Origin: Anaerolineae bacterium
Lineage (GTDB): Bacteria; Chloroflexota; Anaerolineae; B4-G1
Assembly: GCA_016783285.1 (NCBI GenBank)
Contig: JADHWW010000117.1
Span: forward strand, 1 to 29,501
Direction: 5' to 3'
DNA: 29,501 nucleotides
Below the pieces are notes generated by a model that was not told the DNA's origin, did no database searches, and was given only the letters and a program-made list of their open reading frames with translations. A program made the translations under genes and the position numbers. This document shows, one piece after another, positions 2,244 through 11,578 of the stretch (the first letter of the stretch is position 1; each line of letters starts with the position of its first letter).

Positions 2244-3542
2244 CTATGCTCCCGGGTTCACGACGCGCCCGACAAACAGAATGGCGCCCGTCTCGATATC
2301 CCGAATGATGAACATGAAGGAGTGGTCAACGGTGACCTCGACCGGCTCCCCTGGCATTGCACTCAACTCCATCACCACCGCCGTGGCCGCTGCCGCTTCG
2401 GTGCCCGCTTCGTCCACCGAGACGAACGCCTTGTGTATGACCTCCCCGATGAACAGATCGCGCGTGCCGGTCATCCCCGAAAAGTCAGCGCCCCCGGAGA
2501 AAGCAACCGGCATGCCCATCGCTGCGAGAGCCTCTACCAGGCTGCAATCCGATTCGAACTCGAACTTTGGCATGGTCAGAGCGACCTGCCTGTACGTCAG
2601 GCTCTTCAGGATACCATCCACTCGCCTGCCATCCAGCGAGCCTTCAAACGTCTCGAACTCGCCCGCCTCGGGAAGCAGGATCACCATCGCCAGTTCCCCG
2701 CCGTCGTATGGCAACTCGACCGCCTGACACCCCTCCCCCTCGGCGTAACCGAAGGACGTCGTCTGCCTCATCATCGGCACGTTGACCTCGCCGCCGTCAA
2801 GCAGGTAGAACGCGCCATCCCCGGTCAGGTCCGGTTCGAACGGCTCGCTCCACGCCGCATTGAAGTAGATCGCGTTCGTGAGCACCAGCCGCGTCAGCGC
2901 GTCAATGACCCCCTGCGGGATCAGGTCCTCTATCCGGCCCTCCGTCTGCTCGCTGACCCAGTCGTTGATCGTGATACGCGATTCCTCCGCTGCACCCGCG
3001 AAATCGAGCAGCCTCAGCCCGGCACCGTAGTTTTCCGCCAGGACATCGAGGAATTCGGGGAGGAACTCGTAGCCCTCCTGCCCCCAGATAGCGTTGACGA
3101 TGTGCAGCCGGAACCCCTCCTCATCCTTGCCCTCCGCGCCCTCGCCGCGACCGGCGAGTTCCAGGTCCAGACCGTTGAACGCGGGATGCAGGCGGTCTTG
3201 CGGGAGCGTGAAGTGCAGGGCGTCCGCCATCTGCCGTTCGGTCTCACCGCGCGCTCCGGCATAAGTCATCGCCAGCGCCAGCGAGATGCTGTGGGGAGAG
3301 TAGAAAAGGTTGTCATTCCCCTCTCTGAGTACCTGGTAGAGATCGAAGGCGAACACGCTGTTTCCGTCCACCACATCCGCCAGGTCCGGGGCGACCACGT
3401 CCGGTGACATCACCCGCTCCCTCTCCGACCGCACGCTCTGTCCCGCTGGCTGACCGCCACTCGGGACACCGCCCGAGCCACCGCAGCCCACCAGGCCCAG
3501 CAGCGCGATCATGATGGTCACACTCCGTAATATGTTCTTCAT
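2244..3542 (-). CDS. Serpin-family protease inhibitor, predicted lipoprotein
   Basis: A 432-residue precursor. It starts with a lipoprotein signal (MKNILRSVTIMIALLGLVGC, lipidated Cys20) and a short Gly/Ser/Pro linker, followed by a full serpin fold of about 370 residues. Recognisable parts are LTNAIYFNAAW (shutter/breach strand), the hinge VDEAGTEAAAATAV and the C-terminal DHSFMFIIRDIETGAILFVGRVVNP. The hinge matches the E-x-G-T-E-A-A-A-A-T consensus of inhibitory serpins, so loop insertion and suicide inhibition are expected. By counting from the hinge, P1 falls near Leu/Ser/Met in MELSAM, suggesting chymotrypsin-, elastase- or subtilisin-like targets. ATG 3542 follows AGGAGG with suitable spacing. 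It is probably anchored outside the cytoplasmic membrane and guards against extracellular proteases. Bacterial serpins are sporadic and usually attributed to transfer. Confidence 0.93.
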   Translation of the reverse strand: MKNILRSVTIMIALLGLVGCGGSGGVPSGGQPAGQSVRSERERVMSPDVVAPDLADVVDGNSVFAFDLYQVLREGNDNLFYSPHSISLALAMTYAGARGETERQMADALHFTLPQDRLHPAFNGLDLELAGRGEGAEGKDEEGFRLHIVNAIWGQEGYEFLPEFLDVLAENYGAGLRLLDFAGAAEESRITINDWVSEQTEGRIEDLIPQGVIDALTRLVLTNAIYFNAAWSEPFEPDLTGDGAFYLLDGGEVNVPMMRQTTSFGYAEGEGCQAVELPYDGGELAMVILLPEAGEFETFEGSLDGRRVDGILKSLTYRQVALTMPKFEFESDCSLVEALAAMGMPVAFSGGADFSGMTGTRDLFIGEVIHKAFVSVDEAGTEAAAATAVVMELSAMPGEPVEVTVDHSFMFIIRDIETGAILFVGRVVNPGA

Positions 3543-3741
3543 TCTTGCTTGCCTCCTGTTCTTGTTTTGGCGACTCCAAGATTGGCCTCGCCATGTTCTA
3601 GACGGATTGCGGGCCGAAAAGGTTCCGCCTTCAAGTGAGCCTGGAAGCAACTTGAGCAGAGGTATGTTTTTAATGAGCAAAAAGGGGTGTAATCCTATGA
3701 GATTCTACAGCCAATTTGTCCTACGGCGTAACCACTCAGGT
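3543..3741. other. Intergenic region upstream of the serpin gene
   Basis: Contains the serpin ribosome-binding site (complement of CCTCCT just above 3542) and a relatively AT-rich stretch at 3655-3720 where a minus-strand promoter could lie, but no convincing -35/-10 pair is visible. From 3710 it runs into the repeat block described separately. Confidence 0.35.
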
Positions 3742-3916
3742 TGATGAGCGAAGGTCTCCCGACCAAGGATGGGCGAAGGTCTCCCGACCAAGGATGGGCG
3801 AAGGTCTCCCGACCGAGGATGGGCGAAGGTCTCCCGACCGAGGATGGGCGAAGGTCTCCCGACCGAGGATGGGCGAAGGTCTCCCGACCGAGGATGGGCG
3901 AAGGTCTCCCGACCGA
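3742..3916. repeat. 25-bp tandem repeat, 7 units (minisatellite)
   Basis: Seven contiguous 25-base units begin at 3742, 3767, 3792, 3817, 3842, 3867 and 3892; the core is GGCGAAGGTCTCCCGACC. The first unit has two changes near its start, and units 1-2 end in CCAA where later units end in CCGA. The last five units are identical. A degenerate inverted unit follows at 3929-3948, so single strands could fold into a long hairpin. The period is not a multiple of three, so the open frames across it cycle through three readings and are not genes. There are no spacers, so it is not a CRISPR array. Confidence 0.95.
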
Positions 3917-3958
3917 GCCCTTTATGCCTCGGTCGGAGACCCTCGGCGAACTTGTCCT

Positions 3959-3987
3959 GTAGGGACAAATTGCCAATTTGTCCTACG
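3959..3987 (-). repeat. Palindrome at the 3' end of the metallocofactor operon
   Basis: Two arms of 13-14 bases (GTAGGGACAAATTG and CAATTTGTCCTAC) meet around a single central base. On the minus strand the hairpin begins three bases after the stop of the last operon gene. There is no T-run after it, so it is more likely a dispersed palindromic repeat that may protect or end the transcript than a classical terminator. Confidence 0.6.
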
Positions 3988-4220: not shown

Positions 4221-4457
4221 CTACCCACGCCAACACGTACCTCCTTCAGAGCAGGGCGGTGTGGCGCAGCGCTCCTCCTGACCGCAGCAGGTATGTCCCG
4301 CCTGCCGGGCCGTCTGCCCGCTCAACACGAAGGGGACAGAAAGCATCTTGTCCAACGACGAATCACCACAATGGGGACAGACAACAGCATCGCCCGCCCG
4401 TACCAGCACCTCAAACGTCGCGCCACAGTTGCGACAGCGATATTCATAGATCGGCAT
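4221..4457 (-). CDS. FmdB-family zinc-ribbon protein
   Basis: A 78-residue protein starting MPIYEYRCRNCGATFEVL, the signature of the FmdB/CxxC_CxxC_SSSS family. The first knuckle is CRNC, the second CPHCGDSSLDKMLS. The C-terminal tail is Cys-rich (HTCCGQEERCATPPCS), as often seen in anaerobes. The family name comes from a putative regulator of formamidase; the real function is not settled. GAGGAG lies 6-7 bases before ATG 4457. The start overlaps the end of the OsmC gene by 14 bases, so the two are probably translationally coupled. Confidence 0.85.
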   Translation of the reverse strand: MPIYEYRCRNCGATFEVLVRAGDAVVCPHCGDSSLDKMLSVPFVLSGQTARQAGHTCCGQEERCATPPCSEGGTCWRG

Positions 4458-4863
4458 CGGACACTCCTCGTTCCTCTGCGAACTGGACAACCACCTCCGG
4501 CGGACGCATAAGCGTGTTGACCAGGGTGGCGTGCCTGGCTACTCCGATCAGCCGCCGCTTCACGTCCTCAGGCGGCTCCGGCTCAATGTGGATCGTCGCC
4601 TCCATCGCGCCGACACGACGGGGCCTTGCCAGTTCCTCGTATTCCATCTCCAGACTCAACCGCGCAAACGGGATGCCTCGCAGCCGGCAGGAGTTCGCCA
4701 CAAACTCCAGAATGCAAGCGCCCATCGCCGCTGCAAACAACTGCGGTGCACTCAGCGCGGTGCCAGCACCCCCATCCTCCGGCGCGGCATCCAGAGCGAC
4801 AATGTGCTCCCCAGCCGTCGCCAGGAAGCGTAGACCGTCCACGTGTTGCACTGCGAGTTTCAC
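4444..4863 (-). CDS. OsmC/Ohr-family redox protein
   Basis: A 139-residue OsmC-like protein. The family reduces organic hydroperoxides with two cysteines. The first is in AAAMGAC (Cys50) and the second in VANSCRLRGIPF (Cys59), followed by the usual beta strand LSLEMEYEE and a C-terminal HATLVNTLMRPPEV helix. I chose GTG 4863 because AAAGGAGG ends 6 bases upstream; the longer frame upstream belongs to a gene remnant. The GTGA start overlaps the TGA of the upstream MBL-like remnant. Cytosolic; as part of the operon it may protect oxygen- or peroxide-sensitive metal centres (inference). Confidence 0.88.
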   Translation of the reverse strand: MKLAVQHVDGLRFLATAGEHIVALDAAPEDGGAGTALSAPQLFAAAMGACILEFVANSCRLRGIPFARLSLEMEYEELARPRRVGAMEATIHIEPEPPEDVKRRLIGVARHATLVNTLMRPPEVVVQFAEERGVSDADL

Positions 4864-4979
4864 TCCGACCCTCCTTTCACCAGGTATGGACGTAACGACC
4901 GCACCCCCAGGGCGTGATGCACTATCTTCACGATGCCGGGATGAGCACACCCGGTGATGATGACCAACCCCTTTTTCAT
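4860..4979 (-). pseudogene. Remnant of an MBL-fold metallohydrolase gene
   Basis: A 39-codon open frame begins MKKGLVIITGCAHPGIVKIV. GLVxxTGCAHPGIVNIV is a hallmark internal motif of MBL-fold hydrolases annotated as dihydropterin-aminobenzene-phosphate synthase-like, where it lies past the middle of a protein of about 270 residues. Neither the N-terminal HxHxDH half nor the C-terminus is present, and an in-frame TAA lies 15 bases upstream of the ATG. The frame ends exactly on the OsmC start (TGA overlapping GTG), so it may still be translated as a leader that couples OsmC. I call it a decayed fragment. Confidence 0.7.
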
Positions 4980-5039
4980 CTCCGTGTTCCCTTATCGCAA
5001 CCAAAGGTAAACGTTTCGCTACAAGCAGGCATCGCCCTG

Positions 5040-5384
5040 CTATAACAGGGCTGGCCAAAAGACGTCATAGAGCAACAGATCCTCGCTCACGTCGAAGATG
5101 CGATGGTTCGTGCCCTGCGGGACGCGTACGATCACGCCCGGTTCAAGTGAAAAGTCCCCGCTTCCGTCCACCCACATCCTGGCCTTACCAGCCAGGGGAT
5201 AGAGGATGTCGTCGGAGCGGTCGTGGACGTGTGCCAGCACCTCCAGACCACGGCCGATCCGGACGAGCATGCAGGTCACATCCGTGCCCTGGGCACCTCG
5301 GGAGACCAGCACTTTGATCTCGACACCCTTCGCTGTTGGGTGCGGCTGCCACTCCAGTTCCTCGACGCTTGTAACAGGCTCCAT
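5040..5384 (-). CDS. Small cupin-domain protein
   Basis: A 114-residue single cupin. Motif 1 is HVHDRSDDILYPLAG, with His52 and His54 as metal ligands and Asp58/59 in place of the usual Glu. Motif 2 is EPGVIVRVPQGTNHRIFD with His94. The fold binds one metal in a beta barrel. Substrate or reaction cannot be assigned; such small cupins often act as metal-dependent sensors or isomerases. GGAGGG lies just upstream of ATG 5384. It is separated from the redox-protein gene by a stretch holding gene fragments, and from OsmC by the MBL remnant. Confidence 0.88.
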   Translation of the reverse strand: MEPVTSVEELEWQPHPTAKGVEIKVLVSRGAQGTDVTCMLVRIGRGLEVLAHVHDRSDDILYPLAGKARMWVDGSGDFSLEPGVIVRVPQGTNHRIFDVSEDLLLYDVFWPALL

Positions 5385-5401: not shown

Positions 5402-5570
5402 TCAGTCTCGAAGCTCCACTCTGCTGCCGACGCCTGCCGGGATGAAGCCCTCCCTGTAGACCTCCTCAAATAGCCCGCGGGCTACCTCAGCAGGCGGCCA
5501 CAGAGGGGACCAGCAATAGGTTGCGTCCCACACACTCCCGCAAGCGGGCAAGGTAGCCAGTTGCACCCAT
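5402..5570 (-). pseudogene. Gene fragments, N-terminus resembling a NUDIX hydrolase
   Basis: On the minus strand a 27-codon frame from ATG 5570 reads MGATGYLARLRECVGRNLLL and continues VPSVAAC before TGA at 5487-5489. This resembles the first residues of many NUDIX hydrolases (Y-x-x-x-L-R-x-x-V-G ... V-P-S-V-A-A). A second frame (5488-5402) carries ARGLFEEVYREGFIPAG and then stops. The NUDIX box itself is absent. I infer a gene that lost its middle by deletion. The first fragment overlaps, in another frame, the odd C-terminal tail of the upstream redox protein. Confidence 0.4.
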
Positions 5571-6015
5571 ACTCAAACTCCCGATTGGCCCCCGCGAGCA
5601 ACTCCAAGAGAATCACCGCCGTTCGCTCGACCAGCAGTGCGCAGGAGCCCAGCCCGCCCGGCGCGTAGACCATCTCCCGCAGTCGGGCACACTGCGTATC
5701 ACCCAGTTCCGCCAGGAAGCGCTCCCTGTAGCGAGCGGCGAGGTCGAGGGCCGGCCGGTCATCTTCATTCAGGCTCTCCCGGCCAAGTGATGCACCGATG
5801 ACCAACACACCGCCGCTCAATGCCCCGCACATCTCCTGCCGGGTGTCCCCCACGCCGCCCGCCAGTCCGCCCGCTATCCGCACCCCCCGCGGCCCCAGAT
5901 CGCCCAGCACGTGCTCGCCCACGGCGAGCAGCATGGCCTCGGCTCAGTGGTAGCCCTGTCCGACCAGGTCACCGGCCCGCGCAGCCGCGTCCTCCCACAC
6001 GTAGTTCTCAATCAC
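5482..6015 (-). CDS. C-GCAxxG-C-C family redox protein with in-frame TGA at the conserved Cys (candidate selenoprotein)
   Basis: Read from GTG 6015 the frame gives VIENYVWEDAAARAGDLVGQ, then GYH, then TGA (5944-5946, codon 24), then AEAMLLAVGEHVLG. In this family the position is normally Cys (GYxCAEAVL). The rest of the family pattern follows: MCGALSGG, LGDTQCARL and GSCALLVERTAVILLELL. Directly after the TGA the RNA can fold into a hairpin: 8 perfect pairs (TGCTCGCC with GGCGAGCA) around a GTG loop that begins 22 bases after the TGA, plus 4 more pairs below one bulge. That geometry suits a bacterial SECIS. GAGGAG lies 9 bases before GTG 6015 (6 before a TTG at 6018). The upstream gene ends 18 bases before the start. 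The last 30 residues look unlike the family and overlap gene fragments. If the TGA is a plain stop, only a fragment from ATG 5934 would be made. Confidence 0.7.
5920..5943 (-). promoter_or_regulatory. Candidate SECIS-like hairpin downstream of TGA
   Basis: In minus-strand orientation the bases after TGA 5944-5946 fold as an 8-bp perfect stem with a 3-base loop whose first base is G, 22 bases from the TGA. Four lower pairs continue the stem past a single bulged C. Bacterial SECIS elements lie within coding sequence right after UGA with a G in the apical loop at about 16-37 bases. GC-rich coding DNA gives such hairpins by chance quite often, so this alone is not proof. The stem itself extends a few bases below 5920. 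Confidence 0.45.
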
Positions 6016-6033
6016 CAATCCAGTCTCCTCATC

Positions 6034-6483
6034 TCAGGCCTCGTCATCCACGTGCCGGTTGGCAATTGCCTCTCGCAGCGTGTTCACCGCCAGTTCGGCG
6101 CAGTGGACGCTCTCCTCGGGCAGGCCGTCCAGAGCAGCGAGCAGGTCTTCCGGCTCGATCCTGCCCGCCTCCTCCAGCGATATCCCCTGCACCAGGCGAG
6201 TGAGCATACTCCCACAGGCCACCGACGGCCCGCAGCCGTTGGTCATGAAAGTGACCTCTCCTATCCTCTCCCCCTCCAGCCGCAGATAGACCTCCATCGT
6301 GTCGCCGCACCAGCCACAAACGACCGCGCAGGCATCCGGCTCAGGCATGCGGCCCAGGTTCCTGGGATTGTGGGCCTCTTCGAGGACCTTGTCCGAGTAA
6401 AGCGCCCGTTCCTGTTCGATAATCTGCTGTTGCAGTTCCGCCACTGTGCGGTCGAAGTTATCTACCTCTCCCTGATGTCCCAT
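6034..6483 (-). CDS. IscU/NifU-N-like Fe-S cluster assembly scaffold
   Basis: A 149-residue scaffold protein of the IscU/NifU N-terminal family, on which Fe-S clusters are built and handed on. All ligand positions are visible: Cys59 and Asp61 in CGWCGD, Cys84 in TNGCGPSVACGSM and Cys128 in ESVHCAELA. The segment YSDKVLEEAHNPRNLG is the usual entry motif. A 28-residue N-terminal helix (DRTVAELQQQIIEQERAL) precedes it, which is longer than in standard IscU. Its ATG overlaps the stop of the MobB-FeS gene (ATGA), and its stop lies inside the leader of the redox-protein gene, so all three are co-translated. There is no cysteine desulfurase gene next to it in the window. Confidence 0.93.
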   Translation of the reverse strand: MGHQGEVDNFDRTVAELQQQIIEQERALYSDKVLEEAHNPRNLGRMPEPDACAVVCGWCGDTMEVYLRLEGERIGEVTFMTNGCGPSVACGSMLTRLVQGISLEEAGRIEPEDLLAALDGLPEESVHCAELAVNTLREAIANRHVDDEA

Positions 6484-7196
6484 CAGATGCTGACCTCAAT
6501 CTTTCCCTTCTTGAACCCCCTGAGCGACGACAGTATTCCCTGGATCGCGCCCCTCACCATGCTGGAGATAAAGGGATTCATGGGCAGCGGCTGCCCGTCT
6601 ATTCTGACTTCCGTGGCTGGCTGCAAAGAGACGCAAGCCTCAATGCTGCCAGTTCCGGCGACGATCTCACAGGCCATATCGTAGCACCGCTCGTGCCCGC
6701 AGCCTCCACAGTCAAGGTTGGGTAACTTGAAGGCTTTTTGCTCCACCAGGTCGGAGACCTTGCCCGCCTCGTCCCGGCCGAAAAGGGGTACGCCTACCCC
6801 CTCCACATGCTCGGCCGGCCCGACGGCACAGATAGCCAGGCCGTCGAAGAGGTCCCGGTCGTCCGGCTCCCCTCGCAGGCACACGATCTTGGGGAAGGTC
6901 TTCTCCATCTTGAAGCCCTCGACCAGGATAATGTCCGCTTCCAGATAGGGGATGACGTCCTCCAGACTCAGCGACTTCCTCCAAAAGACCCCCGACTCCT
7001 GCGGCGAGATAAGCCCCACCTGGCTGACCGTCTCCCCCAGCACAGCGGTGTCCTTCCCTGGGAGGTCCAGGGGGTGGGATGTATGCTTGATCACGGCCAC
7101 CTCGTGGCCTCTACCAGCCAACTCGCGGGCCAGAGCCTGGGTTAGCGTCGTCTTGCCACTGTTCTTGTACCCGATGATACCCACAACTTTGAGCAC
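6483..7196 (-). CDS. mobB: MobB-like GTP-binding protein fused to a 4Fe-4S domain
   Basis: About 237 residues. The N-terminal two thirds are MobB-like: P-loop GYKNSGKTTL at residues 9-18, then EVAVIKHTSH and ADIILVEGFKMEKTFPKI. MobB binds GTP and assists insertion of guanine dinucleotide into molybdenum or tungsten cofactor. The C-terminus carries CGGCGHERCYDMAC (C-x2-C-x4-C-x4-C), a four-Cys Fe-S motif, a further Cys in GSIEACVSL and the conserved tail GQPLPMNPFISSMVRGA. This fusion is known in anaerobes and links pterin cofactor maturation to Fe-S chemistry. I prefer GTG 7196 (GGAGGG 5 bases upstream); GTG 7199 is also possible. A 13-bp perfect inverted repeat lies upstream at 7231-7261. 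Confidence 0.9.
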   Translation of the reverse strand: MLKVVGIIGYKNSGKTTLTQALARELAGRGHEVAVIKHTSHPLDLPGKDTAVLGETVSQVGLISPQESGVFWRKSLSLEDVIPYLEADIILVEGFKMEKTFPKIVCLRGEPDDRDLFDGLAICAVGPAEHVEGVGVPLFGRDEAGKVSDLVEQKAFKLPNLDCGGCGHERCYDMACEIVAGTGSIEACVSLQPATEVRIDGQPLPMNPFISSMVRGAIQGILSSLRGFKKGKIEVSI

Positions 7197-7230
7197 CACT
7201 TCCCTCCGCTTGGAGAGGTAGATGTCGTAA

Positions 7231-7261
7231 CCTTGCGAAGGTTTCTGTAACCTTCGCAAGG
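7231..7261. repeat. Perfect 13-bp inverted repeat between operon genes
   Basis: CCTTGCGAAGGTT (7231-7243), loop TCTGT, and its exact complement AACCTTCGCAAGG (7249-7261). It lies between the NifX-like gene (stop at 7269) and the MobB-FeS start. No T-run follows on the minus strand, so it is not a classical terminator. It is probably a dispersed palindrome or an mRNA processing or stability site. Confidence 0.8.
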
Positions 7262-7268
7262 ATAGACT

Positions 7269-7757
7269 TTAGACTGCCAACTTATCCAGCCGCGCCATCA
7301 CCTCGTCTAACTGTTGCTGCAGCATCTCCGCCTCTTCCCGCAGCCGGCCTACCTCGTCCTGCTCATACTCGCCCTCGGCGGGAATCTCTCCATGTCCGTG
7401 CGAAAGGCTCTCGCGGCACGGCTCGGCCCCCTGCAGCGTCCCGCCCAGGTACTGCTCCAGAGTATGCCGCACCGTGCCAGCAGCGCCCGTCACCGGTTGG
7501 ATGCCGTATTGCTGGAAAAAACCGATGGCCCGCCGGCCCATCCCGCCGGTGAGCATCACGTCGGCCCCCTGATCATGGATGAAGCCCGGCACCTGCCCGG
7601 GCTGATGGTGGCCATAGTAGGGGTTGGAGACGGCGTGGACCGCCTCTACCTCGCGCCCCTCCAGATCCACCAGCACGAAGTAGGGGCAGCGCCCGAAATG
7701 GGGGCTCACCACACTGTCCAGCCCGTTGCTATCGTCTGCTGAAATCGCGATGCGCAT
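7269..7757 (-). CDS. NifX/NifB-C-like (PF02579) protein with C-terminal coiled coil, 1
   Basis: A 162-residue protein. Residues 1-110 are the dinitrogenase iron-molybdenum cofactor fold shared by NifX, NifY, the C-terminus of NifB and the orange protein ORP. MRIAISADDSNGLDSVVSPH opens it, FGRCPYFVLVD follows, and ADVMLTGGMGRRAIGFFQQYG and GTVRHTLEQYLGG close it. The fold binds a metal-sulfur cluster or its precursor. The C-terminal 45 residues are Glu/Gln/Leu heptads (EEAEMLQQQLDEVMARLDKL), likely a coiled coil for oligomerisation with the next protein, which has a similar tail. No nifHDK is present, so a role in nitrogenase is unlikely. GGAGG lies before ATG 7757. Confidence 0.92.
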   Translation of the reverse strand: MRIAISADDSNGLDSVVSPHFGRCPYFVLVDLEGREVEAVHAVSNPYYGHHQPGQVPGFIHDQGADVMLTGGMGRRAIGFFQQYGIQPVTGAAGTVRHTLEQYLGGTLQGAEPCRESLSHGHGEIPAEGEYEQDEVGRLREEAEMLQQQLDEVMARLDKLAV

Positions 7758-7760
7758 CGT

Positions 7761-8324
7761 TCAACCTCCTTTTTCCAGCCGATCAAGCCGCTCAAGAATC
7801 TCAGCCAACTGGCTACGCAACCCGCTGGCCATATCCTTTAGAGCAGCGATCTCCCCCTCGCGGGAAGGGGCAGGGGCCGCCGGAGGCGGAGGTGGCGTCG
7901 GGGGAACAGACCCACTCGCACGGCGGCCCATTTCCATGCCGCGCCCCATCCCCATACCACGGCTCATCCCCATGCCGGTCTGGACGTTGGCTCCGCTGAC
8001 GGGCTGAAGCCCTCCTGCCTTGTATGCCTCGACCGCCTGCCGCACCGTCCCACCCCCGAAAAGGTAAATGGGCACATTGGCGGACTGGAAGACGTTGAAG
8101 GCATTGGGGCCTACATTGCCGGTCACCACCGCCTGTGCTCCATGCTCAATGACAAATTGGGCGGCCTGAATACCCGCTCCGCCGGCAGCGGCGATCGCCG
8201 GGTTCTCCACGGCCTCAAACTCCATCGTCTCCGTGTCCACGAAGACGTACATAGGACAACGCCCGAAGACCGGGGTTGCCAGCGCGTCAAGGTCCGCGCC
8301 TTGGGCTGTAACGACTACCTTCAT
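7761..8324 (-). CDS. NifX/NifB-C-like (PF02579) protein with Met/Gly linker and coiled coil, 2
   Basis: A 187-residue paralogue of the gene downstream. The PF02579 domain (residues 1-110) includes VFGRCPMYVFVD, AVVTGNVGPNAFNVFQ and GGGTVRQAVEAYKAG. A linker then reads TGMGMSRGMGMGRGMEMGRR, strikingly Met/Gly-rich, followed by a Pro-rich stretch and a C-terminal coiled coil (LRSQLAEILERLDRLEKG). Met-rich linkers can bind soft metals such as Cu(I), an inference that would fit the Mo-Cu cluster of ORP relatives. ATG 8324 is preferred over ATG 8330 because GGAGG is then 8 rather than 2 bases away. The two NifX-like genes are 3 bases apart. Confidence 0.92.
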   Translation of the reverse strand: MKVVVTAQGADLDALATPVFGRCPMYVFVDTETMEFEAVENPAIAAAGGAGIQAAQFVIEHGAQAVVTGNVGPNAFNVFQSANVPIYLFGGGTVRQAVEAYKAGGLQPVSGANVQTGMGMSRGMGMGRGMEMGRRASGSVPPTPPPPPAAPAPSREGEIAALKDMASGLRSQLAEILERLDRLEKGG

Positions 8325-8394
8325 TTGCATTTCCTCCTCATGAATTGTACGCTAAACGTGTCTCTTTGTCCGTCAAGACGTGCTGTCAGACTAC

Positions 8395-9258
8395 TTACTC
8401 CTGCCCCTGCCTGAGCACGATGCTCCCAACCGGTACGCCCACGTCGCGGGCGATGACCGGACATTTGGTTTGCAGCAGGCAGAATACCCGCGGCCCCTCC
8501 TCGCTCAACGTCTCATAGTTGGCCTGTCCCTTGGCGATGATCAGTTCGGCCTTTTCGTACAGCCGCCGAAACTCTTCCGAACAACGATCCAGGATCGTGC
8601 CCGGGGCGTCCGAACCGGTACTGACGACCATCGCCACCCGATCCACTCCAGCGACCAGCGCATCCTCCCGCGTCGCGTCGTTCAGGATAGGGCCCTCCTT
8701 CACCGCGTAGACGACCGGCACGTCGAGCGCTTCGATCAGCAGACGGTCGAAGACCGTCTCCCCGGCGTTGTCAGCCAGGTAAAGTAGGGGCGCAGTTACC
8801 GCGCCCCTACCAGCCCTGGAAAGCGCCTCCCGGAGGGCTGCCCCGTCGTCAATGGCGAAGGGTTGGGCCAGCACCCGCTCCACCGTGCCCCACAGATCGT
8901 ACTCCCGAGCCGGCCCCAGGTCAATGATGTTACCCGCGATGCTCAGCCGCACACCCACCTCCAGCGGGTCGCTCGCCTCCGCCAGCAAGACCTTCATCCT
9001 GGGATAGAGAGTCAGCGCCTCACGGGTGCTAGTCTCCTTAACCGCCCGGTACGGGTCGCTATCTCCGATCTCCTGCCGCACGATGCGGTGAACCCGCTCA
9101 GCGGTCTCCGGCGGCGTGCTCGAAGGCCCGGCTTGCTTGAGCACATCAAGCACGCGGTCAAGCACCGCCTTCTGTTGCCGCTCGTCCGCCCCGGCCAACC
9201 GTGCCGCATCCAACGCCTGGCGCAGGAAACAAGGGTAACAATCCAGATAGGTCCGCAT
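8395..9258 (-). CDS. DUF89 / damage-control phosphatase family protein
   Basis: A 287-residue metal-dependent phosphatase of the DUF89 (ARMT1-like) family, whose members dephosphorylate damaged or excess sugar phosphates and cofactor intermediates. Visible signatures are the N-terminal CYPC (residues 7-10), LYLADNAGETVFD with the catalytic Asp/Asn pair, GPILNDATREDA and IIAKGQANYETLSE. The start ATG 9258 is 6 bases after the Mrp stop and has no clear ribosome-binding site, so it probably depends on coupling. Just before LYLADNAGE the gene carries a palindromic 27-base repeat (8784-8810) that adds about nine in-frame residues, GRGAVTAPL, absent from typical members. Its place in this operon suggests clean-up of a phosphorylated cofactor precursor (inference). 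Confidence 0.92.
   Translation of the reverse strand: MRTYLDCYPCFLRQALDAARLAGADERQQKAVLDRVLDVLKQAGPSSTPPETAERVHRIVRQEIGDSDPYRAVKETSTREALTLYPRMKVLLAEASDPLEVGVRLSIAGNIIDLGPAREYDLWGTVERVLAQPFAIDDGAALREALSRAGRGAVTAPLLYLADNAGETVFDRLLIEALDVPVVYAVKEGPILNDATREDALVAGVDRVAMVVSTGSDAPGTILDRCSEEFRRLYEKAELIIAKGQANYETLSEEGPRVFCLLQTKCPVIARDVGVPVGSIVLRQGQE
8784..8810. repeat. Palindromic repeat inserted in frame inside the DUF89 gene
   Basis: GTAGGGGCGC (8784-8793), a 7-base centre and GCGCCCCTAC (8801-8810). The 27 bases equal nine codons and keep the reading frame, encoding part of GRGAVTAPLLYLADN. Typical DUF89 proteins have no such insertion directly before the LYLADNAGE motif. Confidence 0.75.
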
Positions 9259-9264
9259 CTCTAT

Positions 9265-10332
9265 CTAAAAGATCGGCCTGCTCTTCGTCGCTGGCATCCG
9301 CTCCAGAGCCTGCTCAGCGATCGGTCCGAAGGATTCTGCCGCATACTCCTCAATACCCCCCGCGTCGCAGCGGCGGGCTAGTTCAGGGTCCAGCGGGATT
9401 CGCCCCAGAAGCGGTGTCCCCAGTTGCATCGCCGTGTGCATCGCCTGACTGGGGCCAAAGACCTCAATCCGCTCGCCGCATCCAGGGCAGACGGCATAAC
9501 TCATGTTCTCCACCAACCCCAGGGTAGGGACTCCCAGATGCTGGGCCATGCGGGCCGCTTTGCGCACCACCATCCCCGCCAGGTCCTGGGGGGAGGTGAC
9601 CAGTATGACCCCGCTGAGGGGAATGGACTGCATCACCGTCAGCGAGGCATCGGAGGTTCCAGGAGGCAAGTCCACGACCATGTAGTCCAGTTCACCCCAG
9701 ACCACCTCTTGCCAGAATTGTTTGATGGCACTGCTGATGAGGGGACCGCGCCAGATGACGGCCTCGTCCTCATTGGGAAGCAGCAAGTTGATGGACATCA
9801 CCTTGATTCCGGTAGACGTCTCGGCCGGGAAGATGCCCATCGGCCCCATCAGCGGCGGATCGTGGAGGCCGAATATCTTGGGAATGCTGGGGCCGGTGAT
9901 GTCGGCATCAAGCACGCCCACTCGCTTTCCCTGCCGGTTCAGTGTCACCGCCAGCAACGCCGCTACCGACGACTTTCCCACACCTCCCTTTCCGCTCAGC
10001 ACTGCTACCACGTGCGCGATTTTGTTCATAGACTGGACCGGCTTAGGGCCACCCTCGGCCTGCGTCATGAACGCAGCGCGCTCCTGCTGGTTCATCTCGG
10101 CCAGTTTCACCTCGACCTTCAGGCTGGAATCCAGTGCCGCCACCGCCTCCCGCACGCTGCGCACCAGGTCATCCTTGATAGGAACCTCCTTGAAGGGCAG
10201 AACCAGGGTAAGCGTGATCCCCTCGTCTTGCACGACGACGTCCTTGATCATCTCCAGTCCAACCAGATCGCGTTTGATTTCGGGATGCATCACCCCACGT
10301 AAGGCGTCAAAAACCTGCATATCTGTGATCAT
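9265..10332 (-). CDS. mrp: Mrp/NBP35/ApbC-type P-loop ATPase, Fe-S carrier
   Basis: A 355-residue Mrp protein. Residues 1-80 form the MIP18/DUF59 domain (ITDMQVFDALRGVMHPEI, ITLTLVLPF). The ATPase follows with the deviant Walker A SGKGGVGKSS (113-122), LDADITGPSIPKIFG, DLPPGTSDASL and the CxxC of VCPGCGERIEVFG (Cys282, Cys285), which binds the bridging cluster in dimers. Mrp proteins carry and insert 4Fe-4S clusters; relatives occur with orange-protein operons. AAGGAG precedes ATG 10332. It is preceded by a 123-base spacer after DUF364, the largest gap in the operon, where a secondary promoter is possible but not visible. Confidence 0.96.
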   Translation of the reverse strand: MITDMQVFDALRGVMHPEIKRDLVGLEMIKDVVVQDEGITLTLVLPFKEVPIKDDLVRSVREAVAALDSSLKVEVKLAEMNQQERAAFMTQAEGGPKPVQSMNKIAHVVAVLSGKGGVGKSSVAALLAVTLNRQGKRVGVLDADITGPSIPKIFGLHDPPLMGPMGIFPAETSTGIKVMSINLLLPNEDEAVIWRGPLISSAIKQFWQEVVWGELDYMVVDLPPGTSDASLTVMQSIPLSGVILVTSPQDLAGMVVRKAARMAQHLGVPTLGLVENMSYAVCPGCGERIEVFGPSQAMHTAMQLGTPLLGRIPLDPELARRCDAGGIEEYAAESFGPIAEQALERMPATKSRPIF

Positions 10333-10455: not shown

Positions 10456-11190
10456 TCATTCTCTCACCATCGTCAGCAGCCGTTTGCCCGGTATCTGGCG
10501 GAATGTAGCCCCCTGACTCACGGCCCGCAGCACAGTCGGCACGTCCACCACCAGCGTCCCAGCGACGGCATCCACGCGATGATCGAACAGAACTGGCGAA
10601 AGCGGGGCACTGGCGCCGAGGAGGATAACGAATGTGCCGGGCCGGCAGAGAGCCACCAGGTCGTCGAAGGTGTGGTTGATGAGCGACGTGCCGGTAAGCG
10701 CCACCACGTCCGCCTGGGGCAGCACCTCGCCAGCCCGCTCAGCAGGCACGTCGCCAGGGCGGGGGTGCAGCTCCACTATCCAACATTCAGCCGCCGCTCG
10801 CCGTACCCGCTCGGTGAAGGGAAAATGGCCCACGACGACCACCCGCCGGCCGGCTCCCCGCTCCAGGATGATCCTCTCGGCGTTGACCTCGGTGCAGACC
10901 CCTTCGTCTACCTCCAGCAGCGCGTTGAAGGCCGCCATGCCGATGCTGGCCTTCAGGGTACTGGAGGAGCGTAACCATCCGGCCAGTTCCCGCCCACTGT
11001 GTTCCAAGAGACGCCCGGCCTGGGGCACCGGCGGGCCTGCCGGGTGGGTGGCTGGGCGCAGCGTCGAGGCCAAACCGCCACGGGGCGGGTCGGTGTCCAG
11101 CACCACCACCGTCCAGAAGGCCCCCACCAACACCTGGCGGACCGGCGCGTCGGTCTGCAAACTCCCCAACAGCGCCTCAATGGTATTCAC
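10456..11190 (-). CDS. DUF364/DUF4213 putative heavy-metal chelation protein
   Basis: About 244 residues. The N-terminal part (VLVGAFWTVVVLDTDPPRGG) matches the DUF4213 enolase-like segment. The C-terminal part matches DUF364, a Rossmann-like domain annotated as putative heavy-metal chelation: VVVVGHFPFTERVRR, ELHPRPGDVPAE, ADVVALTGTSLINHTFDDLV and FVILLGASAPLSPVLFDH. Members accompany metal-cofactor and transporter genes in anaerobes, but no member's reaction is firmly known to me. GTG 11190 follows GGAGGAGGG at about 5 bases. The first codons overlap the end of the PadR gene by 14 bases, which indicates translational coupling. Confidence 0.88.
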   Translation of the reverse strand: MNTIEALLGSLQTDAPVRQVLVGAFWTVVVLDTDPPRGGLASTLRPATHPAGPPVPQAGRLLEHSGRELAGWLRSSSTLKASIGMAAFNALLEVDEGVCTEVNAERIILERGAGRRVVVVGHFPFTERVRRAAAECWIVELHPRPGDVPAERAGEVLPQADVVALTGTSLINHTFDDLVALCRPGTFVILLGASAPLSPVLFDHRVDAVAGTLVVDVPTVLRAVSQGATFRQIPGKRLLTMVRE

Positions 11191-11578
11191 CTTCGCCCTC
11201 CTCCATGTGCCGGCCGTAGGCACCCAGAATGTAGTCGATCAGCCCACGCGTCTCCTGCAAATCCTGTGTATACCATCCCAACACCTCGTTCCCCAGCGCG
11301 GTAAGGCAATAGACACGTCGGGGCGGTCCCTGCGCCCGCTCCTCGTCCCAGGTCGAAGTGACCCAGCCCTTCGCCTCCATGTCCCGCAGCGTCCGGTAGA
11401 CCACACTGGGATTCAGGTCCCCCAGACCAAACTCCCCCAGCCGCTCCAGGAGAGTGTAACCATGTGATTGGCTGTGATGCAGGAGCAGAAGCAGCGTCGG
11501 CACCAGCATCCGCACCGCCCGGCGAGAACATCCCCGCTGACGCCATCCCTGCCCTCGTCCTCGTCCTCGTCCTCGCAT
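11177..11578 (-). CDS. PadR-family transcriptional regulator
   Basis: A 133-residue winged-helix regulator, first gene of the operon. After an Arg/Gly-rich leader (MRGRGRGRGQGWRQRG) comes the PadR core: LVPTLLLLLHHSQSHGYTLL, LNPSVVYRTLRDMEAKGWV and the wing PPRRVYCLTALG. A final helix (DLQETRGLIDYILGAY) would dimerise. PadR proteins are usually repressors that respond to small ligands; being first in the operon it probably autoregulates through the promoter at 11643-11671. The positively charged leader could add DNA contacts (inference). The purine-rich stretch GAGGGAGAAAGAAGG precedes ATG 11578. Confidence 0.92.
   Translation of the reverse strand: MRGRGRGRGQGWRQRGCSRRAVRMLVPTLLLLLHHSQSHGYTLLERLGEFGLGDLNPSVVYRTLRDMEAKGWVTSTWDEERAQGPPRRVYCLTALGNEVLGWYTQDLQETRGLIDYILGAYGRHMEEGEGEYH

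Follow-up and report, generated by a model that had tools for sequence, protein, structure and literature searches.

A probable selenoprotein clade of the C-GCAxxG-C-C family in Chloroflexota, with an in-frame TGA at the first conserved cysteine

We analysed a stretch of 29,501 nucleotides (hereafter, the window) from an Anaerolineae bacterium of the phylum Chloroflexota (contig JADHWW010000117.1), where a minus-strand gene of the C-GCAxxG-C-C family contained a single in-frame TGA at codon 24. It was very probable that this TGA was read as selenocysteine (Sec) and that the gene encoded a selenoprotein of the family. The same proposal had been made in a first-pass annotation of the window, and it was now supported by the alternation of TGA and Cys codons among homologues, by a hairpin that covaried in the TGA genes and was not kept in the Cys genes, and by the presence of the Sec machinery in most TGA-form genomes. 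Decoding of the UGA was what we inferred from the codon, the hairpin and the machinery, the last being observed in relatives.

The frame extended from the GTG at 6015-6013 to a TAG at 5482, and the TGA at 5946-5944 (GYH-TGA-AEAMLLAVGEH) was its sole interruption. Several features reported at first sight held up. Namely, the frame was open from this GTG, a good ribosome-binding site (GAGGAG) was located nine bases ahead of it, the TGA occupied the position of the first redox Cys of the family, and the remaining family cysteines were intact. With Cys written for Sec, the window protein exceeded both curated cut-offs, scoring 60.7 bits for PF09719 (cut-off 27) and 51.3 bits for TIGR01909 (cut-off 47.4). 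All four columns that define the family were kept, one of them as Sec, and residue 24 (Sec or Cys), Cys63, Cys109 and Cys125 were invariant across the 54 rows of the homologue alignment. The C-terminus had been described as disturbed, and its length was indeed odd: 52 residues followed Cys125, compared to 15-44 in the best 120 listed homologues, while the counterparts in relatives stopped near residue 147 of the window protein, making the frame about 30 codons longer than usual. The last helix (residues 125-146) was nevertheless complete in the structure model, and the extra tail had the appearance of a slight difference in length close to the gene end, either real or arising from the assembly. 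On the 3' side of the Sec gene, the minus strand at 5402-5594 contained a short frame starting with MGATGYLARL and, in a different frame, a second piece. A Pfam search with these two pieces gave no match; they had the look of a gene that is small or decayed and overlaps the odd tail.

Homologues were searched for in 346 genomes of one Chloroflexota class (that of L002, Ardenticatenia bacterium), in a phylum sample of 400 genomes and in 46 genomes from the class to which L001 (Candidatus Zipacnadia) belongs, and they were present in 49, 3 and 2 genomes, respectively. The DNA was read for 54 distinct genes, including the one from the window. L068 duplicated L022 and was omitted, L001, L002 and L003 corresponded to L053, L021 and L046 and were each counted once, and one of the 51 places found in the 346-genome search (G655) was not among the genes read. 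Another locus, L004, had entered as a weak match and was dropped; no family-like frame was seen there. It had been suggested to check whether TGA and Cys alternated at the column in question, and this was the case: the codon was TGA in 43 genes, TGT or TGC in 11, and no other codon occurred. The 42 TGA genes besides the window one were spread over 41 genomes, and the TGA form was found in 39 of the 346 sampled genomes of the first class and in 2 of 46 of another class. Identity of the homologues to the window protein ranged from 28 to 73%, and the stretch ahead of the column was conserved (consensus RAxxLxxxGYH) in both the TGA and the Cys genes. On the tree, the TGA/Cys label required 6 changes, at least 3 of which were forced by well-supported branches. 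Therefore, Sec and Cys were swapped several times. The window sequence clustered with L024 and L025 (support 99/95), and one genome (G507) carried both a TGA copy and a Cys copy.

The first-pass annotation had also noticed a hairpin with a G-first loop behind the TGA. It was present as an 8-bp helix (5930-5923 pairing with 5919-5912) with the loop GUG at 5922-5920, 21 bases away from the TGA, plus a bulged lower stem. On its own, the window hairpin was within chance for a GC-rich stretch (z = -1.16; 21 of 200 shuffles folded equally well), and it was accepted as real because of the comparative evidence rather than its own folding. The 43 TGA genes aligned without gaps from the TGA onward and shared an 8-bp helix (columns 17-24 paired with 28-35) closed by a GUN triloop 21 bases past the TGA. 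This loop was found in all 42 distinct TGA genes, and 96.1% of the helix cells were paired in the 42 rows, whereas shifting the partner strand lowered the pairing to 27-50%. Four of the eight pairs were altered on both sides, with compensatory changes in 10 cells versus 1.6 in shuffles, and RNAalifold recovered the identical helix unprompted. Of the corresponding 88 cells in the 11 Cys genes, 48 were paired, and the hairpin was not kept. The bacterial Sec insertion sequence (SECIS) model, as given in passages of PMC13188914, has a loop of 3-9 bases, a stem of 4-16 bp, a G in the first two loop positions, a spacing of 16-37 and a minimum free energy of at most -7.5. The hairpin of the TGA genes was within these published limits (loop 3, stem 8, spacing 21), and the energy limit of -7.5 kcal/mol was reached by 43 of 43 TGA genes versus 2 of 11 Cys genes. 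Moreover, codon choice was constrained under the helix: Ala at +7 was encoded by GCC in 38 of 40 rows (43% elsewhere) and Gly at +9 by GGC in 40 of 43 (48% elsewhere). Residues +6 and +10 covaried as well, with Asp at +10 in 5 of 7 Ile rows and in none of the 30 Leu rows.

The Sec machinery was surveyed in the genomes of the relatives. Among the 41 genomes with the TGA form, a group that included G507, SelA was found in 39 and tRNA-Sec in 34. A SelB match at E 1e-50 or better, a level also reached by related factors in control genomes, was obtained in 35 of the 39 TGA-form genomes covered (in 34 the E value was 1e-87 or lower). The SelB set was compiled by hand; G001 and G705 were outside the main SelB search, and the SelB of G705 was over the cut-off separately. 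The ten genomes counted as Cys-only, including G655 with no internal stop reported, had SelA in 6, tRNA-Sec in 5 and SelB in 5, and G077 (L023, Cys) was outside this table. Fisher p values for the comparison were 0.042, 0.010 and 0.011, uncorrected for kinship, and SelB was common in the class regardless of the gene (over the cut-off in 276 of 346 genomes). The nearest genomes, G641 and G657, possessed SelA, SelB and tRNA-Sec, the tRNA-Sec of G641 having the anticodon UCA. The window itself had no Rfam match at gathering thresholds and no tRNA according to ARAGORN; therefore, no tRNA-Sec was encoded within it. SelD was over the cut-off in 8 of 10 genomes searched (G002, G471, G641, G447, G470, G610, G414 and G657), and each of these eight loci, including L141 and L142, had one in-frame TGA. 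This served as an inner control indicating that these bacteria read UGA within genes, and the SelD of these Chloroflexota seemed to be a selenoprotein itself.

Some of the genomes weighed against Sec decoding. G610 (L032, L093, L129, L130), a single contig of 5.35 Mb, possessed the TGA-form gene, SelA, tRNA-Sec and the TGA-bearing SelD, and searches by profile, with the SelB of a relative, and around selA and tRNA-Sec all failed to find SelB there. The gap would be accounted for if SelB were diverged, its gene broken, or the stretch masked. SelB was also searched for and not found in G420, and no machinery component was over its cut-off in G001. G470 and G437 contained short SelB pieces only, as expected of broken assemblies.

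Gene callers choose a shorter product, starting from Met28, in which case the TGA would genuinely terminate a leader or an upstream frame. Accordingly, the start lay at or near this place, past the Sec column, in 119 of the best 120 listed homologues, and it coincided with Met28 in 98. Such a start was also as would be expected of truncated database proteins. For the one listed protein whose own DNA was seen, P0116 ('MAG: C_GCAxxG_C_C family protein [Anaerolineae bacterium]'), the sequence was the L025 frame (G657) from Met28 onward, and the gene had the TGA. However, the conserved stretch ahead of the column in both kinds of genes and the alternation of the column with Cys argued against the short product, which would, according to the structure model, lose the helix of residues 2-19 together with residue 24, and which gave no role to the covarying hairpin right behind the TGA. 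We considered it highly improbable. The clade was present in many environmental Chloroflexota genomes but was represented in databases nearly exclusively without its first helix and key residue, and its use of selenium was therefore invisible.

The sole listed homologue covering the Sec column, P0044 (144 aa), had Arg there. Together with the failure to find SelB in G610, G420 and G001, this would fit a UGA decoded as Cys or some other amino acid through a suppressor tRNA or a changed code. On the other side were the SECIS-like hairpin, the tRNA-Sec and SelA of most carriers, and the in-frame TGA of SelD. Additionally, TGA was an ordinary stop in 13 of the 21 window genes checked and ended many homologues, and therefore there was no general reassignment of UGA. 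We considered a reading other than Sec very improbable. Least probable of all was the doubt voiced at the beginning, a decaying Cys gene with codon 24 turned into TGA: although TGA is one base off TGC and TGT and the window frame overran the usual end, the column counts in 54 genes refuted a nonsense mutation as the general cause, since the same TGA recurred in 42 further genes, Cys63, Cys109 and Cys125 were invariant, and the hairpin covaried.

It had been left open whether Sec forms of the family were already catalogued, and they were. TIGR01909 is named 'C-GCAxxG-C-C family (seleno)protein' by NCBIfam, and therefore the probably Sec-decoded genes described here represented a new clade of a known kind of protein. 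In the parts of the papers available, one Sec form of the family is listed in PMC9312934 and forms 1 and 2 in PMC13188914, both without the Sec motif, and the latter does not state which Cys is Sec. The word 'Chloroflexi' was absent from both papers and 'Chloroflexota' from PMC13188914. Literature searches, which covered few subscription papers, turned up neither the clade nor its truncated form, and no paper with Sec in the split-Soret position described below. Excerpts of PMC5424206 and PMC5736913 deal with other cases of recoding and with Sec-containing formate dehydrogenases of Chloroflexi, not with the PF09719 family. The clade was apparently new and unannotated, and it was seen mainly in one deeply searched Chloroflexota class. 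Two further families were related to the window protein. Its N-terminal part weakly matched the HUGP/GUXX-star fusion selenoprotein (NF045501; 29.6 bits, E 4.6e-07, cut-off 325), which is a fusion with a second domain and, judging from its name, would have Sec at the CGA cysteine and not at the first one. The DVU_1555 family C-GCAxxG-C-C protein (NF045669) had a related domain (50.2 bits, below the cut-off of 103).

What was new here was a fold match to split-Soret cytochrome c, with Sec at the first of four shared cysteines. The window protein had the fold of 1h21 (split-Soret cytochrome c), and in the model Sec24, Cys63, Cys109 and Cys125 were each located at the start of a helix. All four Cys positions were common to the split-Soret relatives, Sec24 replacing the first. 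An hhalign comparison of A3 with one split-Soret protein (probability 27%, E 0.00069) placed Cys24 on Cys and CGAL on CGAL, and single-sequence searches of solved structures with P0001, L023 (1h21 at E 6.3) and L074 gave nothing useful. In comparison to the window protein, which had no CxxCH, split-Soret cytochrome c (NF047622; 1h21) had CxxCH haem motifs added behind the same fold, an apparent export signal, and Cys at the Sec position. NF047622 was not among the three families matched by the window protein, whereas the relatives P0123 and P0125 (279 residues) scored above 500 bits.

An iron centre in split-Soret cytochrome c is reported in the title of the paper on the 1h21 structure; the passages on this cytochrome in PMC8840924, PMC5701242 and PMC8105010 give no description of such a centre. 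Since the four positions were Cys in an iron-centre cytochrome of the same fold, we judged the chances about even that these residues together make up a single metal/redox site, for which an iron(-sulfur) centre would be the likeliest form. A metal-free selenoprotein, that is, a plain thiol/selenol oxidoreductase with Sec24 paired with Cys63, Cys109 or Cys125, was a serious candidate falling somewhat short of even chances, and it concerned the iron-centre step only. It would agree with Pfam calling the family putative redox-active, but the four cysteines shared with a cytochrome that has an iron centre (by the paper title) and the iron-sulfur (Fe-S) and metal genes upstream (Table 1) pointed to a metal.

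For the probable Sec decoding, we proposed that SelB with Sec-tRNA-Sec would bind the hairpin by its GUG loop 21 bases past the UGA, and that the ribosome would then insert Sec at UGA24. Sec24 and the three cysteines would form the metal/redox site, in which Sec24 might be a ligand of the iron(-sulfur) centre or a redox-active selenol beside it. The protein would act alongside Mrp, NifU-N, NifX and MobB-FeS in the delivery of Fe-S clusters or metallocofactors. More tentatively, the domain might be the haem-free core of split-Soret cytochrome c with Sec24 as the direct ligand, representing a widespread bacterial class of Sec-ligated Fe-S proteins in a Mrp/NifU/NifX/MobB metallocofactor pathway, with Cys-ligated twins; we regarded this combination as rather unlikely. 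In certain methanogens, Sec is present at a cluster in HdrA. Through the connection with the split-Soret iron centre, the function of a family known only as 'putative redox-active' becomes testable, the question being whether Sec or Cys at this column binds iron. Related genomes with the Sec and the Cys form offer a natural experiment on why selenium is used.

Table 1. Features of the Sec gene and of the run of genes upstream of it in the window.
Feature	Position	Strand	Remark
PF09719 (C-GCAxxG-C-C) probable selenoprotein gene	5482..6015	minus	about 5575-6015 is the part with counterparts in relatives
GTG start codon	6013..6015	minus	from the sequence
GAGGAG ribosome-binding site	6025..6030	minus	9 bases ahead of GTG 6015
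In-frame TGA, probable Sec24	5944..5946	minus	first Cys column of the family
SECIS-like hairpin	5912..5930	minus	8 bp, GUG triloop 5922-5920, 21 bases from TGA to loop
Cys63 of CGAL	5827..5829	minus	invariant in homologue alignment
Cys109	5689..5691	minus	invariant in homologue alignment
Cys125	5641..5643	minus	invariant in homologue alignment
NifU N-terminal-domain (Fe-S scaffold-like) protein	6034..6483	minus	PF01592, directly upstream of the Sec gene
MobB with Fe-S domain	6483..7259	minus	PF03205, PF04060
NifX/NifB-type FeMo-co carrier domain protein	7269..7757	minus	PF02579
Second NifX/NifB-type FeMo-co carrier domain protein	7761..8330	minus	PF02579
ARMT1-like damage-control phosphatase	8395..9258	minus	PF01937
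Mrp/ApbC-type Fe-S carrier ATPase	9265..10332	minus	PF10609, PF01883
DUF4213/DUF364 'putative heavy-metal chelation' protein	10456..11223	minus	PF04016, PF13938; head of the run

Gene neighbourhoods were examined by tblastn with the window proteins, and Fe-S and metal genes lay upstream. On the other side of the Sec gene, the minus strand of the window encoded an OsmC-like protein (4444-5058) with a weak match to NCBIfam OsmC_like_Se (20.1 bits, cut-off 95). Further along the same strand was a bacterial serpin (2244-3680; PF00079, E 4.3e-116), next to which 1372-2235 encoded a patatin-like phospholipase. In the translations, short direct repeats that were nearly identical formed a run at 3716-3976.
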